This document shows positions 17,897 to 44,528 of a stretch of 48,471 nt of DNA, in pieces. The translations under genes and the position numbers were made by a program. Origin of the DNA: Draconibacterium orientale (GTDB lineage Bacteria > Bacteroidota > Bacteroidia > Bacteroidales > Prolixibacteraceae); contig DYSZ01000007.1 in NCBI GenBank assembly GCA_020726265.1, positions 1 to 48,471 of the forward strand, read 5' to 3'. Numbering within the stretch: the stretch's first letter is position 1; each line of letters opens with the position of its first letter. The notes beneath the pieces are model-generated. The model searched no databases, was not told the DNA's origin, and was given only the letters and a program-made list of their open reading frames with translations.

Positions 17897-18958
17897 TTAA
17901 ATTCCTAATGCACGAATTGCAAGATACACAAGCCCTGCAATAAGCATACTCACCGGAATGGTAATAATCCATGCTACCAACAAATTGGTGGCAACACCCC
18001 AGCGAACCGCTGAAAGTCGTTTGGTCATTCCAACTCCCATAATTGAGCCGGCAATAGTATGTGTGGTACTTACAGGAATTCCTAATCCTTGTGAAACACC
18101 GAAAAGTGTGATTGCTCCGGCAGTTTCGGCGGCAACACCTTCAACCGGAGTCACTTTTGTGATTTTTGTACCCATGGTTTTTACAATTCGCCAGCCACCC
18201 ATCATGGTTCCAATAGAAATAGCCGCATAACACGAAATCGGAATCCAGGATGGAACATGCAGATGCACCTTGCCGGCAGCGTCAACAGTTTGCTGAACAT
18301 TTGCCCAGGCCGGAATTGCGGCACCTTCGAGGTGTATTTGTGCCACATACACCAGCATCGCAGCGCTGATAATACCCACAACTTTTTGCGAATCGCTGCC
18401 ACCATGGCCAAGGCTGAATGCCCCTGAGGAAACGAGCTGTAAACGTTTAAACCATTTATCGGCAGAATGAGGGTTTGCCCGCCTGAAAGTCCATAAAATA
18501 ATTACAGTTATTAAATATGAAATCACCATCCCGATTACCGGAGCGAGAAAAATGAACCCAACTGTTTTAAAAATAACAGCCTGGTTAATTACTGTAAATG
18601 TTCCGGTGTGAGCAACTGCTGCACCTGCAAAACCTCCGATAAGCGTGTGTGATGATGAGGACGGAATTCCGTAGTACCAGGTCAGCAGATTCCAGATAAT
18701 AGCGGCAATAATACCAGCCAGAATAACCTGCAGGCTTATTACGCTTCCATCAACTGTTTTAGCAACTGTATTAGCCACTTTCAGGTCGAAAATCCAATAA
18801 GCCAGAAAATTGAAAAATGCAGCCCAGATGACGGCGGGAAGTGGCGCCAAAACCTTTGTTGAAACGACTGTTGCAATTGAATTCGCTGCATCGTGAAATC
18901 CGTTAATCAGATCGAAAACAAAGGCCAGTACAATTATTATTATTAATAATGTTAACAT
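17897..18958 (-). CDS. pitA: Low-affinity inorganic phosphate transporter (PiT family)
   Basis: 353 residues, about ten membrane helices. Both PiT signature repeats are present: FDLINGFHDAANSIATVVST near the N-terminus and GVSQGLGIPVSTTHTIAGSIMG near the C-terminus. GIPSSSSHTLIGGFAGAAVA is the inner copy. It moves metal-phosphate complexes with protons across the inner membrane. The DUF47 gene lies 40 bp upstream on the same strand, a well-known pairing in which the DUF47 protein is thought to regulate the transporter. An 11-bp-phased repeat upstream of the pair suggests PhoB control. Confidence 0.95.
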   Translation of the reverse strand: MLTLLIIIIVLAFVFDLINGFHDAANSIATVVSTKVLAPLPAVIWAAFFNFLAYWIFDLKVANTVAKTVDGSVISLQVILAGIIAAIIWNLLTWYYGIPSSSSHTLIGGFAGAAVAHTGTFTVINQAVIFKTVGFIFLAPVIGMVISYLITVIILWTFRRANPHSADKWFKRLQLVSSGAFSLGHGGSDSQKVVGIISAAMLVYVAQIHLEGAAIPAWANVQQTVDAAGKVHLHVPSWIPISCYAAISIGTMMGGWRIVKTMGTKITKVTPVEGVAAETAGAITLFGVSQGLGIPVSTTHTIAGSIMGVGMTKRLSAVRWGVATNLLVAWIITIPVSMLIAGLVYLAIRALGI

Positions 18959-18998: not shown

Positions 18999-19646
18999 TT
19001 ATGCGTATTTCACCAGAATGGTTTTCACGACATCCGAAACATCTTCCATTTTGTTGGCAATCTTTTCGAAATTCAGCAATATCTCTTTCTGTTTAATCAG
19101 TTCGATGGGGTCTTTTTCATTCTCAAACAAACTTGAAATAGCCATTTGATAATGCTCATCAACCCGGCTTTCCATTTTACCAATTTCTTTGCACGCTTTT
19201 AAAACTTTCTGCGAATGTTTTGTATCGTCGAGTCCGCCAACTGCAATTTTAATCTGATGACAACCTTTCTGAATTTCAGCCACCATTTGTTTCATAAACG
19301 TACTGATAATCTGGCAACGATAGATATCGATTTTACTCGAAACACCATAAATCAGGTCAACCACATCATCGATTGTTGAAGTCAGTTCATGAATGTCTTC
19401 GCGATCGAACGGAGTGATAAACGATTTGTTCAGAATATCAAAAATCTGGTTGGTAAATTCGTCCCCTTTCTTTTCGATGGCTTTAATAGTCAGCCCAATG
19501 GCTCTTCTGTCATCCATGGTTTCTGCATTAATCAGTTTTTCCAAAGCAGCCGATGCTTCAATTGTATTTTCGGCAGCCTGGTTAAACATGGCGTAAAATT
19601 TTTTCTCTTTCGGAATAAAATACTTAAGTAAACCTGAAATGTCCAT
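18999..19646 (-). CDS. DUF47 (PhoU-like) phosphate transport accessory protein
   Basis: 215 residues, all helical, with the DUF47 pattern: FYAMFNQAAENTIEASAALEKLI, EKKGDEFTNQIFDILNKSFITPFDREDIHELTSTIDDVVDLI split across two helices, and a C-terminal FEKIANKMEDVSDVVKTILVKYA. The acidic metal-binding motifs ExxxD/DxxxD of PhoU-like folds are visible in the second half. It probably sits under the inner membrane and modulates the PiT transporter encoded 40 bp downstream. Confidence 0.93.
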   Translation of the reverse strand: MDISGLLKYFIPKEKKFYAMFNQAAENTIEASAALEKLINAETMDDRRAIGLTIKAIEKKGDEFTNQIFDILNKSFITPFDREDIHELTSTIDDVVDLIYGVSSKIDIYRCQIISTFMKQMVAEIQKGCHQIKIAVGGLDDTKHSQKVLKACKEIGKMESRVDEHYQMAISSLFENEKDPIELIKQKEILLNFEKIANKMEDVSDVVKTILVKYA

Positions 19647-20238: not shown

Positions 20239-20267
20239 TGCTTTAATTTTTCTTCCATTATGCAACG

Positions 20268-20275: not shown

Positions 20276-20297
20276 TAGCTGTGCTGTTAAGCCTGAA

Positions 20298-20325
20298 TTA
20301 CAGAAATATTACAGTTTTGTTACAT
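20298..20325 (-). promoter_or_regulatory. PHO-box-like triple direct repeat (strong)
   Basis: Plus-strand TTACAG (20298), TTACAG (20309) and TTACAT (20320) are spaced exactly 11 bp. In gene orientation they read TGTAACAAAAC, TGTAATATTTC, TGTAATT, close in sequence and identical in spacing to the 7+4 bp repeats of enterobacterial PhoB boxes. The last copy touches the stop codon of the upstream gene. Confidence 0.7.
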
Positions 20326-20835: not shown

Positions 20836-20863
20836 TACAACAATAGTTACAGTTTAATTATAA
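20836..20863 (-). promoter_or_regulatory. PHO-box-like phased repeats before the MORN gene
   Basis: Plus-strand TACAAC (20836), TTACAG (20847) and TTATAA (20858) at 11-bp spacing, 37-64 bp upstream of the start. The middle copy is good and the outer two are degenerate. Confidence 0.45.
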
Positions 20864-27383: not shown

Positions 27384-29144
27384 TTAGCTTTTTGCCAGCG
27401 TAAACAAAAACTCAACGCCGCCGGTCTCGCAGTTGCGCACCGAAATATCGCCTTTGTGCAGTTGAACCGCATTTTTTACAATGGCCAGTCCCAGCCCGGT
27501 GCCTCCCGCCTCGCGGGTACGGCCGTGGTCAACACGGTAAAACCGCTCGAAAATGCGAGAAATGTGTTCTTCCGGAATACCTGAACCAGTATCGGAATAA
27601 GAAAAATAGTAGTATTTATCGTCTTCGTGATAAACTTTTATCTGTATCGAAATTCCTTTTCCACCATAATTAATCGAGTTTTCAATCATATTCTGGAAAA
27701 CAGAGAAAAGCAGCGATTCGTTACCATTTACAATTGTATTTTCAGGAATTTCGGTTGTAAATGCAATGTTTTTTTCATCAATGCGGTTGGCAAAATTCTG
27801 GTGAACTTCTTCGATGAGGGTTTTCAAATCAGTTGTTTTAAACCTGAAAAGTTCTCCCGCGTCTTCTATGTTTGTCAACAACGAAACATCGTTTATCAGG
27901 TGGGTGAGGCGCTGCGACTGCAGGTATGCTTTTTCAATAAAGTAGCGTTGTTTTTCAGCCGAAACAGGCCTGTTTTCAAGTATGGTTTCAAGATATCCTT
28001 TTATTGACGCCAATGGGGTTTTCAACTCATGAGCGATGTTCGAAGTCAGTTGCTGTTTCATCAGCCGGCGCTTTTCGAGCCGGGTGATATCGGTAATCAC
28101 GACTTCGAAACTGCGGTCGGGGAAAATAATGCTCTGTACTTTAAGAAATTTTTCGCCTTTTGAAATAGTAAACTCCCACTGATGCAGTTTTTCAGCAGCA
28201 GTGTTGGTTATTGAATGGTTTTCGAGGAACCTGTTCAGTTCGGCAAGCTCCTCCATTTCGAAAATGTATTCGGGCACTGTAACTTTTCTGTCAGAAATAG
28301 AATTGAGGTACTGAATAAAATAGCGGTTCGAAAGAGTTTTTTGTTTTCCGGACGAAAAGAAAGCGATGCCTTCGTTTAGCGCATTCAGATGGCTGAGGAG
28401 TTTTTCGCGTTCATTGGCCAGCTCGTTTTTTGTATTATTCAGGTCGCTGTAAATGGCAATAATTTGCGAGCCAATTGTTCCAAGTTCGTTTCCGGGAAAG
28501 GAGGTAATCGGGTCAATCTGTTCTTTTTTTCCTGCTTTTACTGCAAAATCGCGAAGTTTTGTAATGGCATCGGCCATGCGCGAAGTGATGAAAAAAAGAA
28601 TTATCCCGATTACGGTAAAAGCAGCCACAATAAAAGTAATGTAAAATCTTTCGGTTTTCAGGAAATTTTGAACCTGAACATCGTAAACAACCGCTGTACG
28701 TACAAAAAAATGGCTGTATTTTCTTGCGTAATAATAGTAGTTCTCTTGAGTGGTGTCGGAATGGCGGATATTCGCGCCTGAATTATGGTTAAGTGCCTTG
28801 TTAATTTCTGGCCGGTGCAGGTGGTTTTCCATGGTTTGGTAGTTTTTCACCGAGCTGTCGAAAATAACATCGCCGTTGAGTGCAATAACAGTAATACGAA
28901 TGTGTGGTTGTGGTAGAATATCTTTTAGTTCGGTAATACGCGACAACTCATTTTTACCTGTGAGATCGTTTTTTTCGATAAACCTGGCTGTGATTTCGGT
29001 AAAGTTATCGAGCGTATTTTCCAACTGCCGGGTACGGAATTTTTTCTCGCGCTCGTACTGAAATGCCAGTACCGAAGCGGTAAAAAGGAAGAAAACCACA
29101 ATGTAATAGAGAAAAATTTTTCCCCTGAAGGAATTCGAATTCAC
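27384..29144 (-). CDS. phoR: PhoR-like sensor histidine kinase
   Basis: 586 residues starting with GTG at 29144. Membrane helix 1 (about 11-28), a periplasmic sensor domain (30-165), membrane helix 2 (about 168-187, ITFIVAAFTVIGIILFFITS), a linker, a PAS-like domain (about 250-350), HisKA with His372 in SNIAHELKTPLASIKGYLE, and a HATPase domain with NMIENSINYGGKG, DTGSGIPEEHISRIFERFY and GTGLGLAIVKNAV. It follows the response regulator gene by 15 bp. This is the usual PhoR architecture, and the genes around it are phosphate-related, so I infer that it senses phosphate limitation, although no Pst/PhoU genes are in the window. Confidence 0.88.
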   Translation of the reverse strand: MNSNSFRGKIFLYYIVVFFLFTASVLAFQYEREKKFRTRQLENTLDNFTEITARFIEKNDLTGKNELSRITELKDILPQPHIRITVIALNGDVIFDSSVKNYQTMENHLHRPEINKALNHNSGANIRHSDTTQENYYYYARKYSHFFVRTAVVYDVQVQNFLKTERFYITFIVAAFTVIGIILFFITSRMADAITKLRDFAVKAGKKEQIDPITSFPGNELGTIGSQIIAIYSDLNNTKNELANEREKLLSHLNALNEGIAFFSSGKQKTLSNRYFIQYLNSISDRKVTVPEYIFEMEELAELNRFLENHSITNTAAEKLHQWEFTISKGEKFLKVQSIIFPDRSFEVVITDITRLEKRRLMKQQLTSNIAHELKTPLASIKGYLETILENRPVSAEKQRYFIEKAYLQSQRLTHLINDVSLLTNIEDAGELFRFKTTDLKTLIEEVHQNFANRIDEKNIAFTTEIPENTIVNGNESLLFSVFQNMIENSINYGGKGISIQIKVYHEDDKYYYFSYSDTGSGIPEEHISRIFERFYRVDHGRTREAGGTGLGLAIVKNAVQLHKGDISVRNCETGGVEFLFTLAKS

Positions 29145-29159
29145 ACGGATATTTTTGAA

Positions 29160-29846
29160 CTATTCAATATTTACAAAGCTGTAACCGTACCCCGATTTGC
29201 CCTTGATGTTGTCGCTGTAGGGGCTAATTTTACGGCGCAGGCGGGCAATATTCACATCCACATTCCGGTCGGTAACAATCACATCATAATTCCAGATGCT
29301 TTTGAGAATTTCCTCGCGACTGATGTATTTTCCCATGTTTTTCACGAGCAGCACAAGAATTTCGTATTCTTTGCGGGTGAGGTTAATTGGTATTCCTTCA
29401 ATCAGCGTTTCCTTTTTATCGGGGTTGATTTTCAGGTCGCGGTAAACAAGCTGGTTATTTTCTTTTTCAGGTTTGGTGCCTCTTTTCAATATCGCTTTTA
29501 TGCGGGCAATGATTTCTTTTATAGAAAAGGGTTTCGAGATGTAATCGTCAGCACCCACGTTAAACCCGGTGAGAATATCGTTTTCCTCGGTTTTGGCGGT
29601 AAGAAAAATAATCGGAATTTCAAGTTTTTTTTCTTTCCGTATCACATTGGCAACCTTAAAACCTGAGATTCCGCCCATCATTACGTCGAGCAGAATGAGG
29701 TCGAATTTTTCAAGTGGTTTTTTCAGCGCATCTTCGCCCGAGTGGGCAATTTCAATCTCGAACCCTTCGCTTTCGAGATTAAACTCAAGAATCTCGCAAA
29801 GGTCTTTTTCGTCGTCAACAATCAGTATTTTTTTACTCGTGTCCAT
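29160..29846 (-). CDS. phoB: PhoB-like response regulator (OmpR family)
   Basis: 228 residues. Receiver domain with DD11-12, phospho-acceptor Asp54 in LILLDVMMGG and the Lys of YISKPFS. Note Gly in place of the usual Pro after DxMM. The winged-helix DNA-binding domain (about 130-228) has LTRKEYEILVLLVKNMGKYISREEIL and VDVNIARLRRKI. Such domains bind tandem direct repeats of about 11-bp period, which is what stands upstream of many genes here. A weak phased pair (29857, 29868) precedes the gene and would fit autoregulation. Confidence 0.88.
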   Translation of the reverse strand: MDTSKKILIVDDEKDLCEILEFNLESEGFEIEIAHSGEDALKKPLEKFDLILLDVMMGGISGFKVANVIRKEKKLEIPIIFLTAKTEENDILTGFNVGADDYISKPFSIKEIIARIKAILKRGTKPEKENNQLVYRDLKINPDKKETLIEGIPINLTRKEYEILVLLVKNMGKYISREEILKSIWNYDVIVTDRNVDVNIARLRRKISPYSDNIKGKSGYGYSFVNIE

Positions 29847-32389: not shown

Positions 32390-32800
32390 TCAATATACCG
32401 GAAAAAACTCACTCATTCTTGATTTTACATTTTGCACACTGGCCAACATTTGCCGGGCATTCTGGTTAAAATATTGCTGGGCTTCGGTGTTGTTGTAAAA
32501 TTTGCCAAATTTTCTGAGTGGTTTTACACGCTGTTCAAGTGTATCGGCTAATTCCATAAACTCTTCAATACCAACTTCCTGGGTTTCCAGCGTATGAATT
32601 ACATCGGTTTCATAGTCGTAAGTATAATCGGCATGTAACGCCAAAACCCATTCCTGTGTTGTATCATCCTCGTTTTCACTGCTGAACCGGGTGTAACAAA
32701 CAAGCATCCGGCCATCGGGCATTCCGTAGAAACTTACGGGTAAAAATGTCTGGAAACAGGTATTATTCGATTTGTAGATTAAACGCGATTTTGTTGACAT
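32390..32800 (-). CDS. Small protein of unknown function (paralogue of 40739-41119)
   Basis: 136 residues with no signal peptide, so probably cytosolic. The N-terminal half shares a clear pattern with the protein at 40739: LIYKSN-x-T-x-F then LPVSFYGMPDG, an acidic segment with YTYDYETD, and a helical C-terminal half containing EAQQYFNQNA. The gene has a textbook Shine-Dalgarno (AGGAGG, 5 bp before the ATG), unusual for this phylum. Four 11-bp-phased repeats lie 64-102 bp upstream. Both paralogues lie in the phosphate island. I know of no described family. Confidence 0.75.
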   Translation of the reverse strand: MSTKSRLIYKSNNTCFQTFLPVSFYGMPDGRMLVCYTRFSSENEDDTTQEWVLALHADYTYDYETDVIHTLETQEVGIEEFMELADTLEQRVKPLRKFGKFYNNTEAQQYFNQNARQMLASVQNVKSRMSEFFPVY

Positions 32801-33557: not shown

Positions 33558-34661
33558 TTATTCCAAGTTCAACACTTTCACAATTTCTGCCCACGAAATG
33601 TATTTGAAATTCTGGCTTTGCTTTTTCTTTCCATCATAGTTAAATCCATCCTGAACAACCAGCATTCCTTCCGGAAAGCCGGGCAATGCACCGGTTGTTA
33701 TGTCTAATCCGTCGGTTTCTTCAACACCATCATAAGCGCCATTTGTAATTCTGAAACTGCCCAGGTATTTGTTTTCATCTTGTCTTTCGAAAATAGCGTA
33801 CGAAAAATTTCCCTGCGACGAAGCTACAAGGTATCCGTTCACACTGTCGGTGGGGTATATTGCAAGTCCTTCAATATCATATTTAATATTCAGGTTTTCT
33901 ACTGAACTTTTTGGAATTAATTTTCCCTGGGTTGAACCATCGGGTTCGGCTTCAAATTTCCAGATTCCGGCCACTTCTTCGCCAATATATACAGTTCCGG
34001 TTTCATCATCGGCAACCATGCCTTCGGTTTGAGTGCTAAGTTTCAACGAGCGAACCAGTTTTGCATCGATTTTATTGTCGGCTGCCAAAAGTTCATATTG
34101 TTCCACTTCGCCCGATTTACCATTTACAAAAACATAAAATAGTCCGGTTTTTTTACTTTGATGCATACACAATCCATACACTTCGTCGGTCATGGCTGAC
34201 TTGATAATGCGGCTGTGAATTGAATCGAGTGTTCCATTTTTACCGATTCTGAAAAGCGAAACCGACTGCATTGTGCGGTTACTGGCAGCAAGAATATCGA
34301 TGGTGTCGCCATTCAGAGGGAAACTGTATCGCAGGTCGCAGTTGTTCATATCGCCGGTGGCGTAATAGTTGAGTTGTTTTCCGGTTAAATCGTAAGTTGC
34401 AAGCCCGCCTTTTTTATCGGTTCCAATTATAAATGATTTTTCAGGCTGAGTTTTATGTATCCAAATAGCAGGGTCGTCGGCCGAATCGTCGTTTTTACCG
34501 CGCGGTGTTGCTTCGGTTTCCACCGATGCAGTAACCAGGTTTTGAATGTGTTCGCCTGCTTTGCGTGAGCCTTCGCCTGGCCTGTCGCACGAGTTTATAA
34601 AAAGTGCCACACACGGAATGGCAATCATTAGTAAGTTTTTGTAAATAAAATGTGTTCTCAT
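33558..34661 (-). CDS. Beta-propeller phytase, lipoprotein
   Basis: 367 residues. Lipoprotein signal with lipobox INSC (Cys25). Family hallmarks: DDSADDPAIWIH, GTDKKGGLATYDLTGK, TEGMVADDETGTVYIGEE, YDIEGLAIYPTDS and EETDGLDIT. These acidic loops bind the calcium ions that hold substrate in the six-bladed propeller. The enzyme releases phosphate from calcium-phytate and related phosphoesters at the cell surface. It is last in a tight operon (beta-helix protein, phosphatase, phytase; gaps of 16 and 26 bp) behind a TonB receptor, a grouping known for beta-propeller phytases in Gram-negatives. Confidence 0.92.
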   Translation of the reverse strand: MRTHFIYKNLLMIAIPCVALFINSCDRPGEGSRKAGEHIQNLVTASVETEATPRGKNDDSADDPAIWIHKTQPEKSFIIGTDKKGGLATYDLTGKQLNYYATGDMNNCDLRYSFPLNGDTIDILAASNRTMQSVSLFRIGKNGTLDSIHSRIIKSAMTDEVYGLCMHQSKKTGLFYVFVNGKSGEVEQYELLAADNKIDAKLVRSLKLSTQTEGMVADDETGTVYIGEEVAGIWKFEAEPDGSTQGKLIPKSSVENLNIKYDIEGLAIYPTDSVNGYLVASSQGNFSYAIFERQDENKYLGSFRITNGAYDGVEETDGLDITTGALPGFPEGMLVVQDGFNYDGKKKQSQNFKYISWAEIVKVLNLE

Positions 34662-34687: not shown

Positions 34688-36049
34688 TTAATTTTCCGGG
34701 AATTTTGTTTTGTATTTCTCCAGTTCTTCAGGTGAGTACCCATTTTTTGCGCTTTCAGGAATTTGGGTACGCTGTTTTATTTTGTCTACTTCGCCACCTT
34801 CCTTAAACTTATTTTTACCACTACCGTTTTTGCTGATTGTAAAATGGTCGTATAAATCGCCGGAAACCGTAAACGACTTGTATTCCAGTTGATTTGATTC
34901 AATTGAAATGTGCTGGTAAAGTTGTGTCATCGATGCCATTCGGTCGCTCCAGAAACTTGTGTTTAACCCGTACATTTTTGGTCCCGAAACCGAAACCACA
35001 TAAAGTGGTGAATTTTTGCCTTTTAACATCACATTTTTGGTGTTAAACCCGCGGCAGTAGGTATGGTCGTGACCGGCAAGCACCAAATCGACATTGTATT
35101 TTTCGAGTAGCGGTTGAACCGCATTTCGGTAACGTTCGTTGTTTCTGCCCTGCGAACACGAATAAATGGGGTAGTGGGTAAAAACCACAGTCCAGCGGTT
35201 GGGATTTGAGGCGAGTGTTTTTTCCAGCCAGCTGAGTACGAGGGTGCTGTCTTCAGTGTAATATCCAAGCGAGGGCGAATCGAGTGATACAAACCGCACT
35301 CCCTGGTAATCGAAAAAGTAGTTGCGGTTTTTGTATTTCTCTGCCGGTGTATTTTCAGGCATTTGGTAAATCTGGTTCCAGTGTTTCGAGAAAGTGCGTG
35401 GTTGCCCCTCGTTACTGTCGAATTCGTGGTTACCGGGTGTAACAACACTGGGCATCATCCCGAAAATCCAGCCGCCGGCATAAAATAACTCTCTCCAGTA
35501 TTCCTCATTGCTTTTGCTCACAATATCGCCGGCAAAAAGCATAAAATCAGCCTCCGGAAAATGCGAATACGCCTGTCGCAGGTTGCGTGAACCCAGTGAT
35601 TTGATGTCGTTCTGCACATCGCCATGATAGATAAACGTAAATGGGTTGGCAGTGGCCGACGAAGTTTCGAACTGAAACCATTCGCTCCAGTTTTTGCCAT
35701 CGCCAACGCGGTATGCATATTTTGTTTCGGGCTGAAGGTTTTCAAAGATTACCTTGTGCCCCATCGAAACCTGGCTGCCTTCTTCCCATGGCGAATTTGT
35801 TCCGGTAACTTTCATTACTTTCTCTTCAAATTTGGGCGAAGGATCAAGAACAGCAATTTCGCCAACGCTTTCTGTAATTTCATAGGCAGTTCTCCACGAA
35901 ACGGCACGTGATGTTGCAGGGTTGCCCGAAATAGAAAGCATTACCCTGTCAGGGAATAGGGTGGGTGTAAAATTTGCATATTGCAAATTCTGGGCAAATA
36001 AACCCGAAAACACACTTAATAAAAAAGTAACTAAAAGTAAAAATTTCAT
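34688..36049 (-). CDS. Purple-acid-phosphatase-like metallophosphoesterase
   Basis: 453 residues with a signal peptide (KFLLLVTFLLSVFSGLFAQ). An N-terminal fibronectin-III-like purple acid phosphatase domain (about 30-130; VMLSISGNPATSRAVSWRT) is followed by a calcineurin-like catalytic domain with metal ligands in YHGDVQND (141-148), FAGDIVSKS, TPGNHEFDS, THYPIYS and AGHDHTYC. It hydrolyses phosphomonoesters or diesters in the periplasm or outside the cell. It lies between a beta-helix protein and the phytase in one operon, fitting organic-phosphate scavenging. Confidence 0.92.
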   Translation of the reverse strand: MKFLLLVTFLLSVFSGLFAQNLQYANFTPTLFPDRVMLSISGNPATSRAVSWRTAYEITESVGEIAVLDPSPKFEEKVMKVTGTNSPWEEGSQVSMGHKVIFENLQPETKYAYRVGDGKNWSEWFQFETSSATANPFTFIYHGDVQNDIKSLGSRNLRQAYSHFPEADFMLFAGDIVSKSNEEYWRELFYAGGWIFGMMPSVVTPGNHEFDSNEGQPRTFSKHWNQIYQMPENTPAEKYKNRNYFFDYQGVRFVSLDSPSLGYYTEDSTLVLSWLEKTLASNPNRWTVVFTHYPIYSCSQGRNNERYRNAVQPLLEKYNVDLVLAGHDHTYCRGFNTKNVMLKGKNSPLYVVSVSGPKMYGLNTSFWSDRMASMTQLYQHISIESNQLEYKSFTVSGDLYDHFTISKNGSGKNKFKEGGEVDKIKQRTQIPESAKNGYSPEELEKYKTKFPEN

Positions 36050-36065
36050 AAGATAATTGTTTTAT

Positions 36066-37271
36066 TTATTTGAATTCAACCGCACCTAAATCAGGCTTCT
36101 TTCCATTAAATAAGCTGCCTGAAATTTTCAGAACACGTTTGTCGTTAACGATTAAATATTTTTCTCCGGCATCAATGCATGGGCTTCCGGCTAATGGCAT
36201 AAATGAAGCTACGTTTAATTTAGGTTCAACATCTAAAAGATTAGACGGAAGGATAACATGGCCGCTACATTCGAGCAAATTGTTATTTCCGTTCTGGGAA
36301 AATAAATTATTAACAACAACCGATTTTCCTCCAAAACGCTTGAACCCACCTAATTTATTGTTCAAAACCACGTTATTCATTGCATAAATAGTGTTTCCTC
36401 CTGTGGCTCCCAACTGATTTTCTGAGAGGGTATTGTTGTAGAAATATATCAACTCGTCAAGGGTCGAAGCACCATTGGTGTTTTCTTTTGTATTTGTTCC
36501 TTCCATACAGCCAAGCCCAACTTTGCATCCTTTAATAATGTTGTGGTGAATATAAAATTCCTTCCCTGTAAAAATGTCGTACGAAATAAGCTGGATACCC
36601 GCATTTTTACTTCCGGTAATAATGTTGTTCCGGATATCGTATTTAATATTTTGGTCGGGATAGTCATACAATCGTATCTCAATTCCATCATCGTTGCTGT
36701 TGGAAATTTTATTGTATTCAATAGTAATATCACTGCCTTTGTGCTCACCACCTTTTCTGATATCAAGGTCAATACCATCGTCTTTATCGTTTTCAATCGT
36801 ATTATAACCGGCATAACCGCCACCTGATGCCTCGAAACTGATGGCGTCTTTGTTATCCACAAAGTAATTGTTTGTAATGGTAACAATTGCATTAATATCA
36901 AGCGGATGGTCGCCGTTAATGATTTTGATTCCGCTGATTTCTACTCCATTTACTTTGATACTGAAAAGATTTTTATTCCCAGCATCAATTATCGTTTTCT
37001 CAATTTTTGATTTATCACCGTCCAGTTTCCATTCCGAAGCAATCACAATATTTTTGTCAATCGTGATTTCACTTTCAAAATAAACTCCGGGTGCAATTAC
37101 AATATAATCGTCATTTTTTGCATTTGTTACAGCTTGGGCAATTGATGAAAAGTCAGCCGGGACCCGAATGATTTTACCTTTCCCTTTTTTTTGCGAATAA
37201 CTACTGGCAAAGCAAATTTGATTGTGGGTTATTGAAAATAATAACAACACAAACGTTAAAATAAACTTCAT
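36066..37271 (-). CDS. Secreted parallel beta-helix protein
   Basis: 401 residues with a signal peptide (KFILTFVLLLFSITHNQICFA). It has right-handed beta-helix repeats of the NosD/pectate-lyase type: FSSIAQAVTNAKNDDYIVIAPGV at the start, then runs of ISGIKIINGDHP, ITNNYFVDNKDAISFEASGG, IEYNKISNSNDDGIEI and IRNNIITGSKNAGIQLIS. It ends PDLGAVEFK, typical of choice-of-anchor/beta-helix exoproteins. No catalytic residues are evident. It is first in the operon with the phosphatase and phytase, and may bind or present a polymeric substrate. Confidence 0.85.
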   Translation of the reverse strand: MKFILTFVLLLFSITHNQICFASSYSQKKGKGKIIRVPADFSSIAQAVTNAKNDDYIVIAPGVYFESEITIDKNIVIASEWKLDGDKSKIEKTIIDAGNKNLFSIKVNGVEISGIKIINGDHPLDINAIVTITNNYFVDNKDAISFEASGGGYAGYNTIENDKDDGIDLDIRKGGEHKGSDITIEYNKISNSNDDGIEIRLYDYPDQNIKYDIRNNIITGSKNAGIQLISYDIFTGKEFYIHHNIIKGCKVGLGCMEGTNTKENTNGASTLDELIYFYNNTLSENQLGATGGNTIYAMNNVVLNNKLGGFKRFGGKSVVVNNLFSQNGNNNLLECSGHVILPSNLLDVEPKLNVASFMPLAGSPCIDAGEKYLIVNDKRVLKISGSLFNGKKPDLGAVEFK

Positions 37272-37379: not shown

Positions 37380-40300
37380 TTAAAAGATGTTGAATTTCAA
37401 ACCTGCCTGAATCCTGGTTCCATTCTCAAGAGAAGAATAAGTATATTCTGGTTTCCACTGATACGTGCGTTGTACTTCGTTCAACAAGTTGTTCGCCGAT
37501 GCGAAAAGTACAAGTTTCTTAGTAATAAAGATGTCGATGTTGGCATCGAGATACGAAACCTTGTCGTAATAAACATCATACTGTTCGGTTTGTCCGTTGC
37601 TGGTTAAAAAGTCTGAAGTGTAGTTGTATGACAAACGGGCGCTAAAACGTTTATTGTCGTATGCCAGTGATGCATTGAGAATGTCTTCGGCCGTGCCTGA
37701 AAGTTCGTATTCACTATCTTTATTGTCGACCCAGTTGTGTGTATAGTTTGCATAAACACTGAAATTACGCAAAAATCCCGGAAGGAAATCGAGTTTCTTC
37801 TGGAATGCTAGTTCCACTCCAAAAAGGTTGGCATCTCCTCCGTTACCTGGCATAAAACTCTCGAAATCTTTTCCTTTTGCTTTGTTATACCGTTTAATGT
37901 AATCGGCTTTTTGAGCAGCAGTGTTATCTGTGCGGGCATTAATTTCTTCGGGTGTTGGTAAATACTGCGAAACTTCCTCCCACGGTAACTCATCAATTAG
38001 CTTAACTTCAAAATCGCTGATATTTTTCATAAAAATACCGGCAGAAAGTAAGCCTGTTGAACCGAGGTAATATTCACCTAAAAGGTCGAAATTGTTTGAT
38101 AACGTTGGTTTTATTTCGGGGTTTCCAAAAAAGATTTCCATGTCTTTGATATCGCATTTTATGTAAGGCACAATATCGCGGTAATTTGGACGGCTGATAG
38201 TTTTAGTGTAAGCCAAACGAAATACACTATTTGAAGTAGGCATGTATTTCAGGTGAACACCCGGAAGCAGCGAAACATAATCCTGATTGGCGCTCACTTC
38301 ATCGAAAGTTTCAGCACGTTCAAAATATTCGTAACCATGATAATTTACTTTGGTTTGCTCAAGCCTCAAGCCGGCCAGCAAGCTCAATTTATCGCCAAAT
38401 TTCTGTGTTGACATTACATATCCGCTGTAAATATCCTCCGAAGCGGTATAGCTATCGGCAATTTCAGTATTATAAAGGGTCACAATCTTCCATTTATCGG
38501 TTGGCCCATCGAAACTGGTGTTTTGTTGCCCAACCCAATCGGCTGTTACGGATTGGCCAACCGTGTAATGTGAGTTATTAAAAGCAGAACTTACATCTTC
38601 CATATTTTCAGCGAATTCGCCCCACATCCACTTCCAGTTATAAACTCCGGGAGATTCAGGATCGTTGTCGAGAGGTTTCCATTTTACCCGGCCAAGCGTT
38701 TTACGGCTTTTATCCATGGTGCGGGCTTTGGCGCCAAATTTCAGTTTATTTTCATATTTACCCTGAATTACTGGAAGTTCAAAATCGGCCTGGTACAGGA
38801 ACTGAACAACATCCGAAAATCTTTCGCGGCCTTTAAAACCATCCAGTTCCCAGGTGTCAACCCTGTTTTTGTCGATGTCGGCTGATGTCCTGCCTGCAAT
38901 TTGCTGTGAAACATTATCAATTCCAAAGCCTTTGTCGAGCCCAAGGTAACGTGGATCGGTAAAATCCATCACCACTGTTTTCTCATTGTAACTTTGCAAT
39001 TCGAAATCGCGTGAATCAGGTTCGTCTTCAGTTGTTTTGATGTATGCAAATTTCCAGTTTGCTTTTAAAATACCCAGGATGTGTTCGCCTTCCATAGCGC
39101 CATTATAAATTCTTTTGTGAACCAAATCGCCACCTTTTTCGTTGGCACCGGCATATACATGGCGCTCCAATTCAGGATGAAATGTGGGATTCATTGGATC
39201 ATAATTAACATACATGGTTCCTGAATTGTCGTCAATACCATCGTTATTTTCATCAAGAACCATGTAAGGTCTTCCGGTTAAGTCGTTAACGCCGTCGCCG
39301 TTGGCATCAATTTTCGAATCGATTTCATCTTCAAAGGCTTCAGCATCATCAAAAACCTGTTCAAAACTTTTAATGTCGTTGAATTCATCAGCCATTAACC
39401 AGTTTCCTTTGTAGTCTCCGCCAATATCGTCGATACGCAGGGTGTAGGTTTCACGCCAGTCTTTGTAATCATTAAAGATTCCTGTAAAGGCTATTGAATG
39501 TTTTTCATTGAATTTCCAATCGAGCCCAAGTGTGTAGCTCTGTCGCAGGCGTTCCATCAGGGTTTGTTCAATATTCAGATATTTTGGGACGAAATATTCG
39601 GTATCTCCCACCATCGTTGGTTCCCAAGAGGAGTTGTGTTTATTTGAGCCCAGTTTCTGGTCGTATATTGAAGCAGAACCTATTACGCCAAATTTATCGT
39701 TGAAATAACGATCTCCAAAAATTATATTTCCATTAACTTGAGGGTCGTTGGTTAAAAAGTTATACCCGCCAGCGGCAGAAACTGACAGACGTTTTGAGTA
39801 GGGTGCTTTTCGTGTGACAAGATTTACCGCACCGCCAATGGCATCTCCATCCATATCGGGAGTAATTGCCTTACTAACTTCAATCGCCTGAACCATGTCT
39901 GCCGGGATTGCATCGACACCAACTGCACGGTTATCGCCAGTTCCGGGCATGGCTGTGCCGTTTATTGAAATTGTGCTTTTTGAAGGATCCGTACCGCGAA
40001 TACTAATTAATTTAGCTTCGCCCTGGTCGTACTGAACATGAATACCGGGAACGCGTTTTAACGCATCGCCAATATTCGGGTCGGGGAAACTACCCACCTG
40101 ATCCGACGAAATTACATTCATAATACTCGGTGCATTTAACTGCTGGTTTAGGGCTTTTAAAACTCCGCCAGCGCTACCTCTCACCACAACTTCTCCAATA
40201 ATTTCATTATCAGTTAACTGAAAATCAAGCGTTTGTGACTTATCATCTTTAATGGTAATCTTTTTCTCAATGGGTTTAAACCCAACATACGAAACTACCA

Positions 40301-40535
40301 CAACATAATCACCGGGATTTAATCCAAGCAGACGGTAAACACCGTTATTATCGGTTACAGTTCCTTTGTTCAGCGATTTTATAATTACTGCTGCACCCGG
40401 AAGAGGCAGATTCTCCGAATCAACAATATGACCGGAAATTGAACCTTTCCCTGCATCACCTACATTATCGTCGGCTACTACAAATTGATTAATTACAGTC
40501 AGGAGGAAGAAGAAAAGTAAAATGAATTTTCTCAT
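37380..40535 (-). CDS. TonB-dependent receptor with calcium-loop insert
   Basis: 1051 residues. Signal peptide (1-21), carboxypeptidase-regulatory-like domain (about 30-108), plug (about 130-245, with NIGDALKRVPGIHVQYDQG and SIRGTDPSKSTISING) and a barrel ending in QAGLKFNIF. A likely extracellular loop at about 395-445 carries two EF-hand-like acidic motifs, DANGDGVND (410-418) and DENNDGIDD (428-436). There is no SusD partner. A strong PHO-like box and a -7 element precede it, and a phosphatase and a calcium-dependent phytase follow, so I infer import of an organic phosphate or its calcium complex. Confidence 0.93.
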   Translation of the reverse strand: MRKFILLFFFLLTVINQFVVADDNVGDAGKGSISGHIVDSENLPLPGAAVIIKSLNKGTVTDNNGVYRLLGLNPGDYVVVVSYVGFKPIEKKITIKDDKSQTLDFQLTDNEIIGEVVVRGSAGGVLKALNQQLNAPSIMNVISSDQVGSFPDPNIGDALKRVPGIHVQYDQGEAKLISIRGTDPSKSTISINGTAMPGTGDNRAVGVDAIPADMVQAIEVSKAITPDMDGDAIGGAVNLVTRKAPYSKRLSVSAAGGYNFLTNDPQVNGNIIFGDRYFNDKFGVIGSASIYDQKLGSNKHNSSWEPTMVGDTEYFVPKYLNIEQTLMERLRQSYTLGLDWKFNEKHSIAFTGIFNDYKDWRETYTLRIDDIGGDYKGNWLMADEFNDIKSFEQVFDDAEAFEDEIDSKIDANGDGVNDLTGRPYMVLDENNDGIDDNSGTMYVNYDPMNPTFHPELERHVYAGANEKGGDLVHKRIYNGAMEGEHILGILKANWKFAYIKTTEDEPDSRDFELQSYNEKTVVMDFTDPRYLGLDKGFGIDNVSQQIAGRTSADIDKNRVDTWELDGFKGRERFSDVVQFLYQADFELPVIQGKYENKLKFGAKARTMDKSRKTLGRVKWKPLDNDPESPGVYNWKWMWGEFAENMEDVSSAFNNSHYTVGQSVTADWVGQQNTSFDGPTDKWKIVTLYNTEIADSYTASEDIYSGYVMSTQKFGDKLSLLAGLRLEQTKVNYHGYEYFERAETFDEVSANQDYVSLLPGVHLKYMPTSNSVFRLAYTKTISRPNYRDIVPYIKCDIKDMEIFFGNPEIKPTLSNNFDLLGEYYLGSTGLLSAGIFMKNISDFEVKLIDELPWEEVSQYLPTPEEINARTDNTAAQKADYIKRYNKAKGKDFESFMPGNGGDANLFGVELAFQKKLDFLPGFLRNFSVYANYTHNWVDNKDSEYELSGTAEDILNASLAYDNKRFSARLSYNYTSDFLTSNGQTEQYDVYYDKVSYLDANIDIFITKKLVLFASANNLLNEVQRTYQWKPEYTYSSLENGTRIQAGLKFNIF

Positions 40536-40575: not shown

Positions 40576-40592
40576 ATTACAGTTCGATTACA
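40576..40592 (-). promoter_or_regulatory. PHO-box-like direct repeat (strong)
   Basis: Plus-strand ATTACA at 40576 and again at 40587, 11 bp apart. In gene orientation this reads TGTAATC-GAAC-TGTAATG, just ahead of the -7 element. Confidence 0.7.
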
Positions 40593-40738
40593 AAATCTTT
40601 AGTGATATATTAAAAGAATACTTTATAAGCACCTGAAAGTGTGTTGTTTATAAACATTCTTAATTGAATGAAAGAATAAATAATGCTTGGGTGCTTTCTT
40701 TTAATTCAATTACATTTTAGTTGGCAGCTACCATTTGT

Positions 40739-41119
40739 TTATGCAAATACTATCTCTTTCCTGCTTCCGGCCATCCTGTTTATATGTACCTGAGCTTCAG
40801 CGTAACTATCGATATTGCGCAGCGATTTGGTAATTTTTATGCGGGTTTCGGGCCTGTCAACCATTTCCCTGAAATCGCCGAGGCAAATTTCGATACTGCT
40901 GTACCTGTAAATCTGGCCGGTTTCAAAATCATAGCTAAAATCTTCAAGTTCAGCAAAAACAAATTCAAGCCCTGTATTATGAAAGTTGATTTCGTAAAAA
41001 CGGGCATAAACAAGCGATATACTTCCATCGGGCATTCCGTAAAAATAAACGGGGAGTGCTGTGTGAAAATAGGTCATGTTCGACTTATAAATTAAAACGG
41101 GTTTTGTGTTCATATTCAT
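40739..41119 (-). CDS. Small protein of unknown function (paralogue of 32390-32800)
   Basis: 126 residues, no signal peptide. It shares LIYKSN-x-T-x-F, LPVYFYGMPDG, a following YARF segment (YTRF in the paralogue), YDFETG and a C-terminal EAQVHINRMA pattern with the protein at 32390. It is third in an operon behind the metallophosphoesterase and the glycosyltransferase, only 11 bp after the latter. Two ATG codons (41119, 41113) are possible starts. Its position suggests a cytosolic role tied to membrane remodelling or phosphate status. No known family recognised. Confidence 0.75.
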   Translation of the reverse strand: MNMNTKPVLIYKSNMTYFHTALPVYFYGMPDGSISLVYARFYEINFHNTGLEFVFAELEDFSYDFETGQIYRYSSIEICLGDFREMVDRPETRIKITKSLRNIDSYAEAQVHINRMAGSRKEIVFA

Positions 41120-41130
41120 TCAATTAAAGG

Positions 41131-42117
41131 TTAAATGGTGTTACGCATAATTATTTTTTCGATGATTTCGTTGGTTCTGTCGGGGAAATCAATTTTTAGC
41201 GGCTGTATGTTTTCGAGCCAGAGCCTGATTTTAGCTACATCTTCAGAGAGGTCGTTTAAAACCTGAACTCCCATTTCGCGCAGAAAAGCTGCATTGCATT
41301 GCTGTTCGTACTGGTTTTTCATCGGAATCACACAGAGTTTTTTCCCCATGTGAAGGGCTTCAGCCGGGGTTTCGAAACCGGCATTGCAAAGAATCCCGCT
41401 GCAACTGATAAACGACTCTTGAAATTTTTCGATTGAAACGGGTTGAAAATGAATGTTTTGTTTGCTGTATGATTTTTTGCTGTGTTTCGAAAAGACTTCC
41501 CACTGTACCTGTGGAAATGCGCCTAAAACCCTTTCAATCTCTTCGTTACTGTACGATGGCAAATAAACCGAGTAGTGGTTGTTTGTGGAGTGGTTCGCGT
41601 TTCGGATTGCAGTTCGGATTACCGGGCTGAAGTTAAAACTGTCGAGCTGATTAAAATGAAACCCATATTTTAGCGAAACCGGCGCATAATTGCGGAGAAT
41701 AAATTTACCGAGTGCATCATGTTTTTCAGGTTTTGGAGTGGCGTTGTGCAAAACCGCATTCTGATGGCTGAGCCCGATGCACTTTTTGCCTTTAATTTTA
41801 CAGGCCCAGGCCGAAACAGGTTCAAAATCGCTGATAACCAGGTCGTATTTTTGCACCGGCAATTTTATCAAATCAACAAGAAACCTGGGTAACCTTGACC
41901 TTGAAATTGTTTTTTTTAAATCAACACCGCCGGTTGTACCAAAAATAAAACTCACGCCATAAAACCTGTATTTTACTTCGAACGGGAGTTGGATATCACC
42001 CTGAATTCCACTGACGAGCACGTCAGTTTCTGCCATTTTCTGCAGAACAGGAACAATTTCTGTTGCCCTCGCCAAGTGCCCGTTGCCGGTTCCCTGAATT
42101 GCGTATAATACTTTCAT
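41131..42117 (-). CDS. GT28/MurG-like glycosyltransferase
   Basis: 328 residues. GT-B fold with the N-terminal acceptor-side motif GTGNGHLARA (9-18) and the C-terminal donor-binding segment LCNAGFETPAEALHMGKKLCVIPM with YEQQCNA. This pattern is shared by MurG, plant MGDG synthases and other UDP-sugar lipid glycosyltransferases. It begins 3 bp after the stop of the metallophosphoesterase gene, so the two are made together. With a PHO-like box ahead of the operon, the best inference is glycosylation of diacylglycerol to make a phosphorus-free glycolipid. The sugar and acceptor are not shown by the sequence. Confidence 0.82.
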   Translation of the reverse strand: MKVLYAIQGTGNGHLARATEIVPVLQKMAETDVLVSGIQGDIQLPFEVKYRFYGVSFIFGTTGGVDLKKTISRSRLPRFLVDLIKLPVQKYDLVISDFEPVSAWACKIKGKKCIGLSHQNAVLHNATPKPEKHDALGKFILRNYAPVSLKYGFHFNQLDSFNFSPVIRTAIRNANHSTNNHYSVYLPSYSNEEIERVLGAFPQVQWEVFSKHSKKSYSKQNIHFQPVSIEKFQESFISCSGILCNAGFETPAEALHMGKKLCVIPMKNQYEQQCNAAFLREMGVQVLNDLSEDVAKIRLWLENIQPLKIDFPDRTNEIIEKIIMRNTI

Positions 42118-42120
42118 TTT

Positions 42121-42957
42121 TTACAATATGTTGGTAAAAACAAGTTCTTTAATCAACGATTGGTACAACTGTCGCCCTTCGGGAATATCAGGTTCGTCAT
42201 TGGGAAATTCGTCGTCGTTTTCGGTGTGGTAAAAAAGTTTCCATTCTTTTGAATCGTATTCGACTGCGGTAAAATTTTCAACCCAGTCGCCGCAATTCAG
42301 GTATTTAATGGGTTTGCCATTTATAATCAGCTCTTTTTCTTTTGGGATGTGGGTGTGCCCGCAAATCACTGATTGATAGCCCTGCGTTTCGGCTACCTCG
42401 CCAATTTTCTTCTCAAAAATCGAAGGTTCGGGTTTTTCGCGGAGCCAACGCTTTTTAATACTCCGGTAAAAGATGATTTCGTTTTTGCCAAAAAGCCGTA
42501 AAACCGGCTGAAGTGCGTTGTTCAACCACGAAAGCAATCCGTACGAAGCCGCCCCGATTTTAGCCAGCCATTTTGTTTCGTGGATCACAAGGTCGAAAAT
42601 ATCGCCATGAAAGATCCAGGTTTTCTGTCCGTCGAGGTCTAAAACCAGTTGGTTAACAATGCGCAGGTTTCCGATTTGTATTTTTTCAAACTTCCGTAAA
42701 AACTCGTCGTGATTACCGGTAATGTAATAAACCTGGATCCCTTTTTCCATCATTTTTATCAGTTGCCTGATTACTTTCAGGTGGGCTTTTGGGAAAAAAT
42801 TTCGTGAAAAACGCCACGAGTCGATGATGTCGCCGTTTAAGACAAGGATTTTAGGTTGTATCGATTTCAGGTATTTTAAAACCTTTTTGGGGTGACAGGC
42901 ATGTGTGGCAAGATGAATATCGGATATTACAGCCACTTCCGGTTCTCTTATCTTCAT
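42121..42957 (-). CDS. PlcP/LpxH-like metallophosphoesterase
   Basis: 278 residues from the ATG at 42957 (an upstream TTG at 42981 would add eight). Calcineurin-like fold with ligands in ISDIHL (11-16), NGDIID (41-46), GNHDE (81-85), FHGDIFD and CGHTHIPKE. It also has the stretch YLNCGDWVENFTAVEYD, typical of the group annotated UDP-2,3-diacylglucosamine hydrolase-like, to which the phospholipase PlcP of alphaproteobacteria belongs. PlcP degrades phospholipids to diacylglycerol when phosphate is scarce. The next gene is a glycosyltransferase, mirroring the plcP-agt pair. A true LpxH role in lipid A synthesis cannot be excluded, but the PHO-like box upstream argues against it. Confidence 0.82.
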   Translation of the reverse strand: MKIREPEVAVISDIHLATHACHPKKVLKYLKSIQPKILVLNGDIIDSWRFSRNFFPKAHLKVIRQLIKMMEKGIQVYYITGNHDEFLRKFEKIQIGNLRIVNQLVLDLDGQKTWIFHGDIFDLVIHETKWLAKIGAASYGLLSWLNNALQPVLRLFGKNEIIFYRSIKKRWLREKPEPSIFEKKIGEVAETQGYQSVICGHTHIPKEKELIINGKPIKYLNCGDWVENFTAVEYDSKEWKLFYHTENDDEFPNDEPDIPEGRQLYQSLIKELVFTNIL

Positions 42958-43007
42958 AGTTAATTCACTATTGCGCTGCAAATTAGGCTGATTGTTATTA
43001 ATCTACA

Positions 43008-43024
43008 GTTACAGTTCAGTTACG
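43008..43024 (-). promoter_or_regulatory. PHO-box-like direct repeat before the PlcP-like operon
   Basis: Plus-strand GTTACA (43008) and GTTACG (43019), exactly 11 bp apart. In gene orientation this is CGTAACTGAAC then TGTAACTGTAG. A TAATTTG, one base short of a -7 element, lies 22 bp further toward the gene. Confidence 0.65.
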
Positions 43025-43081
43025 ATAAAAATAAAGTTAAAGGCAGCGAAGATTCAGATTTTACAGTTTTATGTTTTATTT

Positions 43082-43100
43082 TTAACCGGTTTTTAACCGG
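43082..43100. promoter_or_regulatory. Tandem AACCGGTT-type operator in the divergent promoter
   Basis: TTAACCGG occurs at 43082 and 43093, 11 bp apart, and each copy overlaps the palindrome AACCGGTT. It sits between the divergent PlcP-like and DUF2062 genes. It may extend the phased PHO array or be a separate operator. A hairpin ATCCCGA-TTTA-TCGGGAT follows at 43143-43160. Confidence 0.4.
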
Positions 43101-43240
43101 TTGAACAGTAGTGTTTTGTAGTTTTGCGGCGCAATGAAACGAATCCCGATTTATCGGGATAAGTTACATCGGGTGAGAAAATTGATAAAATAGACGAAGC
43201 ATAACCGCCAACTAATCAGCAACTTTAATATTTTGTCCAA

Positions 43241-43771
43241 ATGAAAAGACAACCATTCAGATTCGATTCGATAAATACAATCCTGAACAGGCGCAAGGTG
43301 CGAATATTAAGGTTCTTAAATGCCCAACCCGGTAATCCGAAACACAAAGCACTTTCGATTACAACCGGTATTTATCTCGGGTTTTTTCCTGTAATCGGGG
43401 TCACTACAGTTTTAAGCTTGATAGTATCTTTTGTTTTCAGGATGAATCATTTTTTGGTACAAGGATTAAATCTGTTGCTCGCACCAGTGCATCTTGCAGT
43501 AATTCTTCCTGTGCTGAAAGCAGGGCGGTGGCTGTTTTTTGGCGATGGCCACGTAATCAGCGCAATTTCGTTTCAACATGGATTCAGCCTTGAAGCGTTT
43601 CAACCTCTTTTTGAAAGTTTTGCAGGCGGAATTATCCTTTGGGCAATTGTTGCAACCGTAACAAGCCCAGGCGTATATTTTCTGATATTAAAAATCGTTG
43701 AAAAACAAATAAAGGAAACAGTTTCAACCCACCAGGATAAACTGTATCAGAAAAATAGAAACGGGCTGTAA
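43241..43771 (+). CDS. DUF2062 membrane protein
   Basis: 176 residues. Basic N-terminus (about 1-45, NRRKVRILRFLNAQPGNPKHKA) then the DUF2062 core GIYLGFFPVIGVTTVLSLIVSF and further membrane helices (GLNLLLAPVHLAVILPVL, FAGGIILWAIVATVTSPGVYF). In Bacteroidota this domain is often fused to, or next to, glycosyltransferases. It is divergent from the PlcP-like/glycosyltransferase operon and shares its promoter region, so a link to glycolipid handling is plausible. Function unproven. Confidence 0.83.
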   Translation: MKRQPFRFDSINTILNRRKVRILRFLNAQPGNPKHKALSITTGIYLGFFPVIGVTTVLSLIVSFVFRMNHFLVQGLNLLLAPVHLAVILPVLKAGRWLFFGDGHVISAISFQHGFSLEAFQPLFESFAGGIILWAIVATVTSPGVYFLILKIVEKQIKETVSTHQDKLYQKNRNGL

Positions 43772-43790
43772 ACACCTGTTTTACAGCCCG
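43762..43790. terminator. Terminator between DUF2062 and peroxiredoxin genes
   Basis: CGGGCTGTAAA (43762-43772) pairs with TTTACAGCCCG (43780-43790). It includes the DUF2062 stop codon and can serve both convergent genes. Confidence 0.7.
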
Positions 43791-43817
43791 CTGTTCAAAA
43801 TAAGTTAAAAAAACCTG

Positions 43818-44528
43818 CTATTTTTTCAGAATTTTGTCAAGCACAGTTTCTTTCGAAATCTTTTTGGTACAGAAGAACCAGTCTTTACATTCCAACCCTT
43901 CTTCTTTCCCGTCCATGCGGTCTTTTGCAGTTCCGCACGAACCGGCAGGCGAAATAATCACATCATCACCCGGACGCCAGTCGGCAGGTGTGGCAATCTT
44001 AAACTCGTCGGCAGTTTGCAGCGCAAGTACCACGCGGTACAACTCGTCGAAATTACGACCAAGGCTGAGCGGATAATAAATAATAGTGCGGATAACGCCG
44101 GCAGGGTCAATTACAAACACTGCGCGTACAGCTTTTGTGTTGCTTTCGCCGGGCATCATCATCCCGTATTTTTTGGCTACTTCCATGGTAATGTCTTCGA
44201 TGAGCGGGAATGTAACTTCCACATCTTTCATACCTTTGTACTCAATTTTTTCCTTGATGGTGCGTAGCCAGGCAATGTGGCTGTACAATCCGTCAACAGA
44301 GAGGCCCACGAGTTTGCAGTTGGCTTCGTTAAACTGTTTTTCGAGGGTTGCAAAAGTCATAAACTCCGAGGTACAAACCGGTGTAAAGTCGGCCGGGTGG
44401 CTGAAAAGAATTACCCAGCTACCTTTGTAATCGACCGGGAAATTGATGTCGCCCTGTGTTGTTACTGCCTTAAAATCAGGCGCTTTGTCGCCAATGCGTG
44501 GCATGGCATAAACTTGATTTTCTTCCAT
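43818..44528 (-). CDS. Peroxiredoxin, Prx6 type
   Basis: 236 residues. Peroxidatic Cys52 in HPADFTPVCTSEF, the Prx6-specific GLSVDGLYSHIAWL and a long C-terminal extension beginning near LALQTADEFKIATPADWRPGD. Three more cysteines follow (GSCGT, LECK, FFCT), as in archaeal-type Prx6 enzymes, and may resolve the active-site sulfenic acid. It reduces hydrogen and organic peroxides in the cytosol. A PerR/Fur-type gene lies 78 bp upstream on the same strand, so induction by peroxide is likely. Confidence 0.94.
   Translation of the reverse strand: MEENQVYAMPRIGDKAPDFKAVTTQGDINFPVDYKGSWVILFSHPADFTPVCTSEFMTFATLEKQFNEANCKLVGLSVDGLYSHIAWLRTIKEKIEYKGMKDVEVTFPLIEDITMEVAKKYGMMMPGESNTKAVRAVFVIDPAGVIRTIIYYPLSLGRNFDELYRVVLALQTADEFKIATPADWRPGDDVIISPAGSCGTAKDRMDGKEEGLECKDWFFCTKKISKETVLDKILKK

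Follow-up and report, generated by a model that had tools for sequence, protein, structure and literature searches.

What is the function of an operon that joins a metallophosphoesterase (MPE) gene to a glycosyltransferase (GT) gene in Draconibacterium orientale? The genes lie in a window of 48,471 nucleotides (the whole stretch of DNA that was analysed), which is one contig (DYSZ01000007.1) of a 3.86-Mb genome (assembly GCA_020726265.1, 99.6% complete). MPE (42121..42957, minus strand; Pfam Metallophos, 52.8 bits) comprises 278 residues when read from its ATG, or 286 from an alternative TTG further upstream, at 42981. It is followed on the same strand, after 3 bp, by GT (41131..42117; 328 residues; PF13528, 117.6 bits) and, after a further 11 bp, by a small protein of 126 residues (40739..41119), and the three genes are presumably co-transcribed. 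A first reading of this DNA, hereafter the original prediction, had described this arrangement, which was borne out by the open reading frame (ORF) calls, and the NCGDWVEN signature, which is indeed found in MPE. From the sequence comparisons and the genomic setting reported below, we consider it probable that MPE and GT form a phosphate-starvation module that replaces phospholipid with glycolipid.

MPE had been proposed to be PlcP-like rather than an LpxH, and this was supported by sequence identities, a tree and the invariant residues. In blastp comparisons, MPE was 35.8% identical to a Pseudomonas aeruginosa protein encoded in a PlcP-Agt arrangement and 31.1% identical to a PlcP-like protein of Sinorhizobium meliloti, as compared to 22.8, 21.4 and 23.1% for the LpxH-type proteins of its own genome, of Parabacteroides and of Klebsiella, respectively. 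The PlcP reference proteins were picked by gene neighbourhood, not by locus tag. The S. meliloti gene adjoins genes for an acyl-homoserine-lactone synthase and a LuxR protein, a neighbourhood that we take to be that of the PlcP gene SMc00171. In P. aeruginosa, the PlcP-type gene overlaps the next GT gene by 4 bp, and a cyclase-domain gene follows; judged by this arrangement, it was taken as the PA3219-PA3218 pair (PMC8528852). A 90-row tree split off the three LpxH rows with a support of 99/96 and placed MPE on the PlcP side. Eighteen columns were invariant over 18 aligned rows, and these included D13, H15, D43, N82, H117, H201 and H203, which are presumably the metal ligands. The motif N[CS]GDW[VIL]E[NSH] was present in 79 of 80 fetched relatives of MPE (the 80th read short), a count that is biased because NCGDWVEN was one of the six peptides used for the scan. 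MPE reads GHTHIP where three Proteobacterial rows read GHIHH or GHIHT. By these sequence comparisons MPE groups with PlcP-type proteins, not with LpxH, and we propose that it is a phospholipase C yielding diacylglycerol.

We also considered that MPE could be a second LpxH, with GT decorating lipid A or a lipopolysaccharide precursor. MPE shares with LpxH the metallophosphoesterase superfamily and its conserved residues, and a sequence search of the PDB gave ten matches at E ≤ 1, nine of them to LpxH-type hydrolases. It also matches the LpxH equivalog models weakly, under the cut-off of both (55.9 of 190.35 bits for TIGR01854 and 65.4 of 134 for NF003743). Two PlcP-type references likewise score weakly on LpxH models, however. 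Furthermore, the genome holds a separate, more LpxH-like gene on contig C323 (98 bits on TIGR01854 and 111 on NF003743), which clusters with the Parabacteroides and Klebsiella LpxH in the tree. As the C323 gene also misses both cut-offs, the model test alone does not decide. Taken with the phosphate-regulon setting of the operon, described below, these observations make the lipid A explanation very improbable. We rejected an LpxH function for MPE on the basis of the tree and of the C323 gene, though the LpxH models do not formally call the latter. The original prediction had allowed that MPE might turn out to be the sole LpxH of the genome; because of the C323 paralogue, it is not even the sole LpxH-like gene.

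GT matched PF13528 nearly over its full length (residues 1-303 of 328) and with a score well above the cut-off of 25. TIGR00661, the NCBI model for the MJ1255/VC2487 subfamily, aligned with residues 2-305 and gave 154.9 bits, below its cut-off of 195.9. Judged by these profiles, GT is a relative of that subfamily rather than a strict member. We found no function for the GT family in the open-licence PubMed Central papers that carry the family identifiers. The P. aeruginosa Agt1-type and Sphingomonas GTs belong to GT4 by Pfam, the former with the domains PF13439, PF13692 and PF00534, whereas GT yielded no GT4 domain at E ≤ 0.01 (its sole matches being PF13528 and a sub-threshold PF04101) and no blastp match to either of these proteins at E ≤ 10. 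The claim that the GT family is unlike Agt is therefore upheld.

The original prediction had also called GT 'MurG/MGDG-synthase-like'. GT has in common with MurG and the plant-type monogalactosyldiacylglycerol (MGDG) synthases (GT28, PF04101/PF06925) a GT-B fold and a weak similarity to GT28_C, but it remains under the PF04101 cut-off (20.1 vs 22 bits), and the genome gave no match to PF06925 at E ≤ 0.001. The AlphaFold model of GT had a predicted local distance difference test score (pLDDT) of 94.2. Its closest solved folds were Bacillus subtilis YojK (Z 22.1), P. aeruginosa MurG (Z 21.0; 286 aligned residues, root-mean-square deviation 4.0) and UDP-GlcNAc 2-epimerases (about 21), MurG being level with GT1 and epimerase chains, and no MGDG synthase chain was among the 50 fold matches listed. 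Because the closest folds are GT-B proteins in general, 'MurG-like' applies to the fold only; by profile, GT is a PF13528 protein related to MJ1255/VC2487 and not an MGDG synthase. A PDB sequence search with GT gave a single match (E 0.044, to a ribosome-binding factor), which we took as due to chance. We propose that GT is a glycosyl-diacylglycerol synthase.

The pairing of MPE with GT was found to be conserved in the Bacteroidota. A scan of named genomes gave 281 relatives of MPE, the closest named ones being mostly from Prolixibacteraceae, and the best 80 of the 281 were fetched. GT was present downstream and on the same strand in 55 of the 80, at a distance of -35 to 344 bp in 54 of them and of 652 bp in one where the MPE frame reads short; three of the 25 loci without a downstream GT have less than 1.5 kb of locus remaining. 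Of 247 genomes of the phylum, MPE was matched in 97 (E ≤ 1e-40) and GT in 115 (E ≤ 1e-30). When strong matches were counted (MPE at least 374 bits, 71 genomes; GT at least 410 bits, 59 genomes; 26 genomes with weaker MPE and 56 with weaker GT matches dropped), both genes were found in 56 genomes of the 247, and GT was directly downstream of MPE in 54 of these, with gaps of 6-178 bp by profile ends. GT was elsewhere in the genome in two cases (G084 and G154), a second copy was elsewhere in another (G122), and three genomes had a strong GT but no strong MPE. Similarly, in 140 genomes of the family, MPE occurred in 80, GT in 72 and both in 69, and they were adjacent in 65 of the 69. Loci L004 and L154 cover one and the same stretch of DNA, as do L015 and the G290 locus, and these were not counted as independent. 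The adjacency of MPE and GT is far beyond chance, and the pair is a real module. In a strain of Parabacteroides distasonis that also has an LpxH-type gene, we observed a PlcP-like gene followed by a PF13528 GT (L115:4971-6892; 75.5 bits), the latter 24% identical to the GT of the window.

In one family, Flavobacteriaceae-like by gene content, the partner can be a different enzyme. We fetched the PhoB-like neighbourhoods of five of its genomes (L136-L140), and each of the five had, next to its PhoR/PhoB-like genes, a different member of the GT superfamily, which scored 21-41 bits with the GT profile; two of these GTs gave 36.5 and 48.1 bits with PF04101 and 29.7 and 31.2 with PF13528. In L136, such an alternative GT is encoded 12 bp behind MPE. 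In L141, a sixth region that was fetched, the usual pair of MPE and GT was present, and a response-regulator gene was nearby. The order in L137 (GT, Porin_O_P, PhoR, PhoB and a TonB-receptor-like gene) is that of Fjoh_0541-0545 in Table 1 of a study of Flavobacterium johnsoniae (PMC8115612), and because of this match Fjoh_0541 is probably of the more distant GT type. The same table has Fjoh_4577 (PlcP) and Fjoh_0541 (GT, pf04101) under 'Lipid remodelling', with transcript fold changes of 8.59 and 5.42, respectively, on low phosphate (PMC8115612). F. johnsoniae thus resembles the window in belonging to the same phylum, in having a PlcP together with a GT of the wider superfamily, both induced by low phosphate, and in having a PhoBR operon with a porin, a TonB receptor and lipoproteins; it differs in that the PlcP and GT genes are apart, PlcP being listed as an orphan (PMC8115612). 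The idea is therefore not new for the phylum.

These findings also bear on the view that the operon is phosphate-regulated but that GT acts on some other lipid or polymer, such as polyprenol or a surface glycan, MPE serving merely to recycle headgroup phosphate. The fold matches of GT are broad enough for this, as they extend over UDP-GlcNAc 2-epimerases, antibiotic and plant GTs and MurG with Z of about 20-22. We regard it as very unlikely, given the tight phylum-wide pairing of GT with a PlcP-like gene and given that in L136 a different GT of this superfamily takes the place of the usual partner.

The surroundings of the operon are, by their gene content, a phosphate regulon. About 12 kb from MPE and GT, and on the same strand as the other phosphate genes, the window encodes PhoB (29160..29846, minus strand; 315.8 bits on NF053854, cut-off 270) and PhoR (27384..29144; 669.2 bits on NF053855, cut-off 500), both of Bacteroidota type. 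Phosphate scavenging is represented by a phytase (33558..34661; PF02333, 348.1 bits) and a purple acid phosphatase-like enzyme (34688..36049; PF16656 and PF00149), and phosphate uptake by a PHO4-family transporter (17897..18958; PF01384, 283.1 bits) next to a PhoU-like DUF47 protein (18999..19646; PF01865, 77.6 bits). In four further genomes (L153, L154, L155 and L160), MPE is near relatives of several of the phosphate genes of the window. With NF053854, none of 12 relatives was over the cut-off, and the two PhoB-like genes scanned with TIGR02154 both gave 216 bits, for a cut-off of 296; the PhoB-like genes of the relatives were therefore assigned from their position together with scores under the cut-off. 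The phosphate-linked setting anticipated for the operon was supported by these genes and by the Pho-box-like sites described next.

An array of three half-sites (CGTAAC, TGTAAC and ATTAAT) with an 11-bp period precedes MPE at 42997..43024 on the minus strand, in agreement with the original prediction of a PHO-like box in front of the operon. The pattern TGTAAYNNNNCTGTAAY had three exact matches in the 3.86-Mb genome, all of them within the window and on the minus strand: one (40576..40592) upstream of a TonB-dependent receptor gene, and two overlapping ones (20297..20324) upstream of ORF 19888-20265. One-mismatch matches numbered 26 in the genome. The window had two of these, of which one precedes the MPE start by 51-67 bp and the other (20846..20862, minus strand) is upstream of ORF 20326-20799. 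A reversed control pattern gave 16 matches, as compared to 29 in all for TGTAAYNNNNCTGTAAY, so that the one-mismatch matches outside the window are mostly due to chance.

Because a classical Pho-box score gave little excess over the 80 loci, a looser half-site, T[GT]TAA[CT] in an 11-bp repeat, was read off 14 loci (L004-L015, L018 and L030) and tested on the other 66. The best period-11 triple within 120 bp upstream of MPE scored on average 13.14 in these held-out loci vs 12.08 in dinucleotide shuffles (z 8.9; 7.3 on 45 non-redundant loci). Other periods (8, 9, 10, 12, 13 and 14) gave z values of -2.8 to 1.4. In 226 upstream regions of other genes from 64 of the same loci, z was 0.3 for period 11 and -0.5 to 2.0 for periods 9, 10, 12 and 13. 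Scores of at least 14 were reached by 25 of 66 MPE upstream regions vs 20 of 226 controls. The signal is an average over the group: just 3 of the 66 held-out loci have a triple at full strength (at least 16 of 18). The Pho box CTGTCATNNNNCTGTCAT has an 11-bp period (PMC8528852), and as the array has the same period we infer that it is a predicted PhoB site.

The third gene of the operon is of a different kind. A profile of the small protein found 70 places in 40 of the 140 family genomes, with up to three copies per genome. D. orientale itself has three copies, namely the one in the operon, a paralogue of 136 residues that is 40% identical (32390..32800, minus strand; found by the profile search) and one on another contig (G000:C258:28961-29293). 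No more than 13 of the 70 places had an MPE or GT within 10 kb, and for this reason we rejected the small protein as a core part of the module. When 20 further neighbourhoods of the small protein were compared by blastp with the proteins of the window, relatives of phosphate genes were present in four, the same four genomes as above; the other 16 held at most a relative of a TonB receptor or a sulfatase, and that of the third D. orientale copy held none. No Pfam match was obtained at E ≤ 0.01. The model of the small protein (pLDDT 84.5, built from 5 rows) had no convincing counterpart, the best PDB match having a Z of 4.5 and Foldseek giving none at E ≤ 0.001. The third gene noticed in the original prediction is therefore a genuine ORF that is conserved (94% identity to that of L015, the nearest relative) but not a constant partner of the pair. 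Since its paralogous family sits mostly away from MPE and GT, we regard it as an optional, lineage-specific accessory or passenger. Comparison of window positions 40601-43900 with L015:4901-8600 showed a DNA identity of 0.86-0.95 for GT and the small protein, 0.65-0.80 for MPE and 0.53-0.60 across most flanking stretches, an unevenness that suggests recombination within the operon.

How would the module work? The order of reactions that we propose is modelled on PlcP-Agt (PMC8528852). When phosphate is low, PhoR and PhoB would activate the operon through the array at 42997-43024. MPE, acting in the cytoplasm, would split a phospholipid, most likely phosphatidylethanolamine, into diacylglycerol and a phosphorylated headgroup, and GT would attach a sugar, donated by a nucleotide sugar, to the diacylglycerol, giving a phosphate-free glycolipid. 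In P. aeruginosa, as in the window, a PlcP-type MPE is encoded directly upstream of a GT-B GT, with a Pho box in front and in a phosphate-starvation setting, and lipid renovation by PlcP-Agt is also described for S. meliloti, SAR11 and Phaeobacter (PMC8528852, PMC4796936). The two systems differ in the GT, which has GT4 domains in P. aeruginosa and belongs to PF13528 in the window, and in the half-sites, which are T[GT]TAA[CT] here and not CTGTCAT. The presence of PlcP in Flavobacteria, its position beside various GTs and the Pho boxes upstream are already in print, as is the induction of plcP by phosphorus starvation in the strains of that study, and its types 3 and 5 may include the GT type of the window (PMC4796936). 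We found neither the phylum-wide pairing nor a Pho-box consensus for Bacteroidota in open-licence PubMed Central papers.

Several observations weigh against this interpretation. The flavobacterium Dokdonia MED134 has a plcP, and the distinctive lipids given for it are aminolipids, no glycolipid being named in the passages concerned (PMC4796936). Of the 71 genomes in which MPE is strongly matched, 15 have no strong GT match. Conversely, 54 genomes of green-sulfur type carry a related GT without an MPE match at E ≤ 1e-40, from which it follows that PlcP is not an obligatory companion of the GT family. The tree that separates MPE from LpxH has long branches and a midpoint root, and in it the PlcP references form one group with a support of only 82/0. 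Finally, the classical CTGTCAT/CTGTAAC-type score reached 12 of 14 in 8 of the 80 loci, about three being expected from shuffles.

Sphingolipids are often made by Bacteroidota, and among the rival explanations the one in best agreement with the sequences has the same reactions take place on these lipids: MPE would free ceramide from ceramide phosphoethanolamine, and GT would glycosylate the ceramide. The sequences do not fix a glycerolipid over a ceramide acceptor, and the literature on the GT family yielded no function, as mentioned above. MPE is nearest to PlcP, however, and the demonstrated role of PlcP is to form diacylglycerol from glycerophospholipids (PMC8528852). We therefore consider the sphingolipid version unlikely and the exchange of phospholipid for glycolipid probable.

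Other genes adjoin the operon. A DUF2062 protein (43241..43771, plus strand; PF09835, 41.3 bits) is the divergent neighbour of MPE, and a relative of it also adjoins MPE in L015 and L155. On the other side, the TonB-dependent receptor of 1051 residues (37380..40535, minus strand; PF00593, 76.3 bits) and a beta-helix protein (36066..37271, minus strand; PF13229, 40.5 bits) are encoded. Elsewhere in the window, a secreted-type protein of 977 residues with a type IX sorting tail (21024-23957, minus strand) is made of two near-identical tandem halves, as read from its translation.

The relatives of GT in the green-sulfur-type family provide a further lead. FMO protein is characteristic of green sulfur bacteria, and it was found in all four genomes of this family that were searched. 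The GT relatives score 222-244 bits in the 54 sampled genomes (e.g. L126 and L127), and the one that was scanned with TIGR00661 gave 205.7 bits, above the cut-off. No PF06925 match was found in any of the three genomes searched for it, and all three that were searched for PF04101 had a single match. The MGDG synthase of Chlorobaculum tepidum is MgdA (PMC5897459, PMC11719660). It is possible, although we hold it as a tentative suggestion that is rather doubtful as a whole, that PF13528/MJ1255-type GTs are widespread and unrecognised glycoglycerolipid synthases, working in Bacteroidota together with PlcP during phosphate starvation, under a T[GT]TAA[CT] Pho box with a period of 11 bp, and being in green sulfur bacteria a candidate for MgdA.

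If these proposals are correct, a large and abundant phylum would save phosphorus by exchanging its membrane lipids with a glycosylating enzyme outside the Agt family, and surveys of phosphate stress would need a marker gene of their own for the PF13528-type GT. A function would be assigned to a group of GTs for which we found none, together with a Pho-box consensus for Bacteroidota that can be tested, and the galactolipids of green sulfur bacteria would have a candidate enzyme class.

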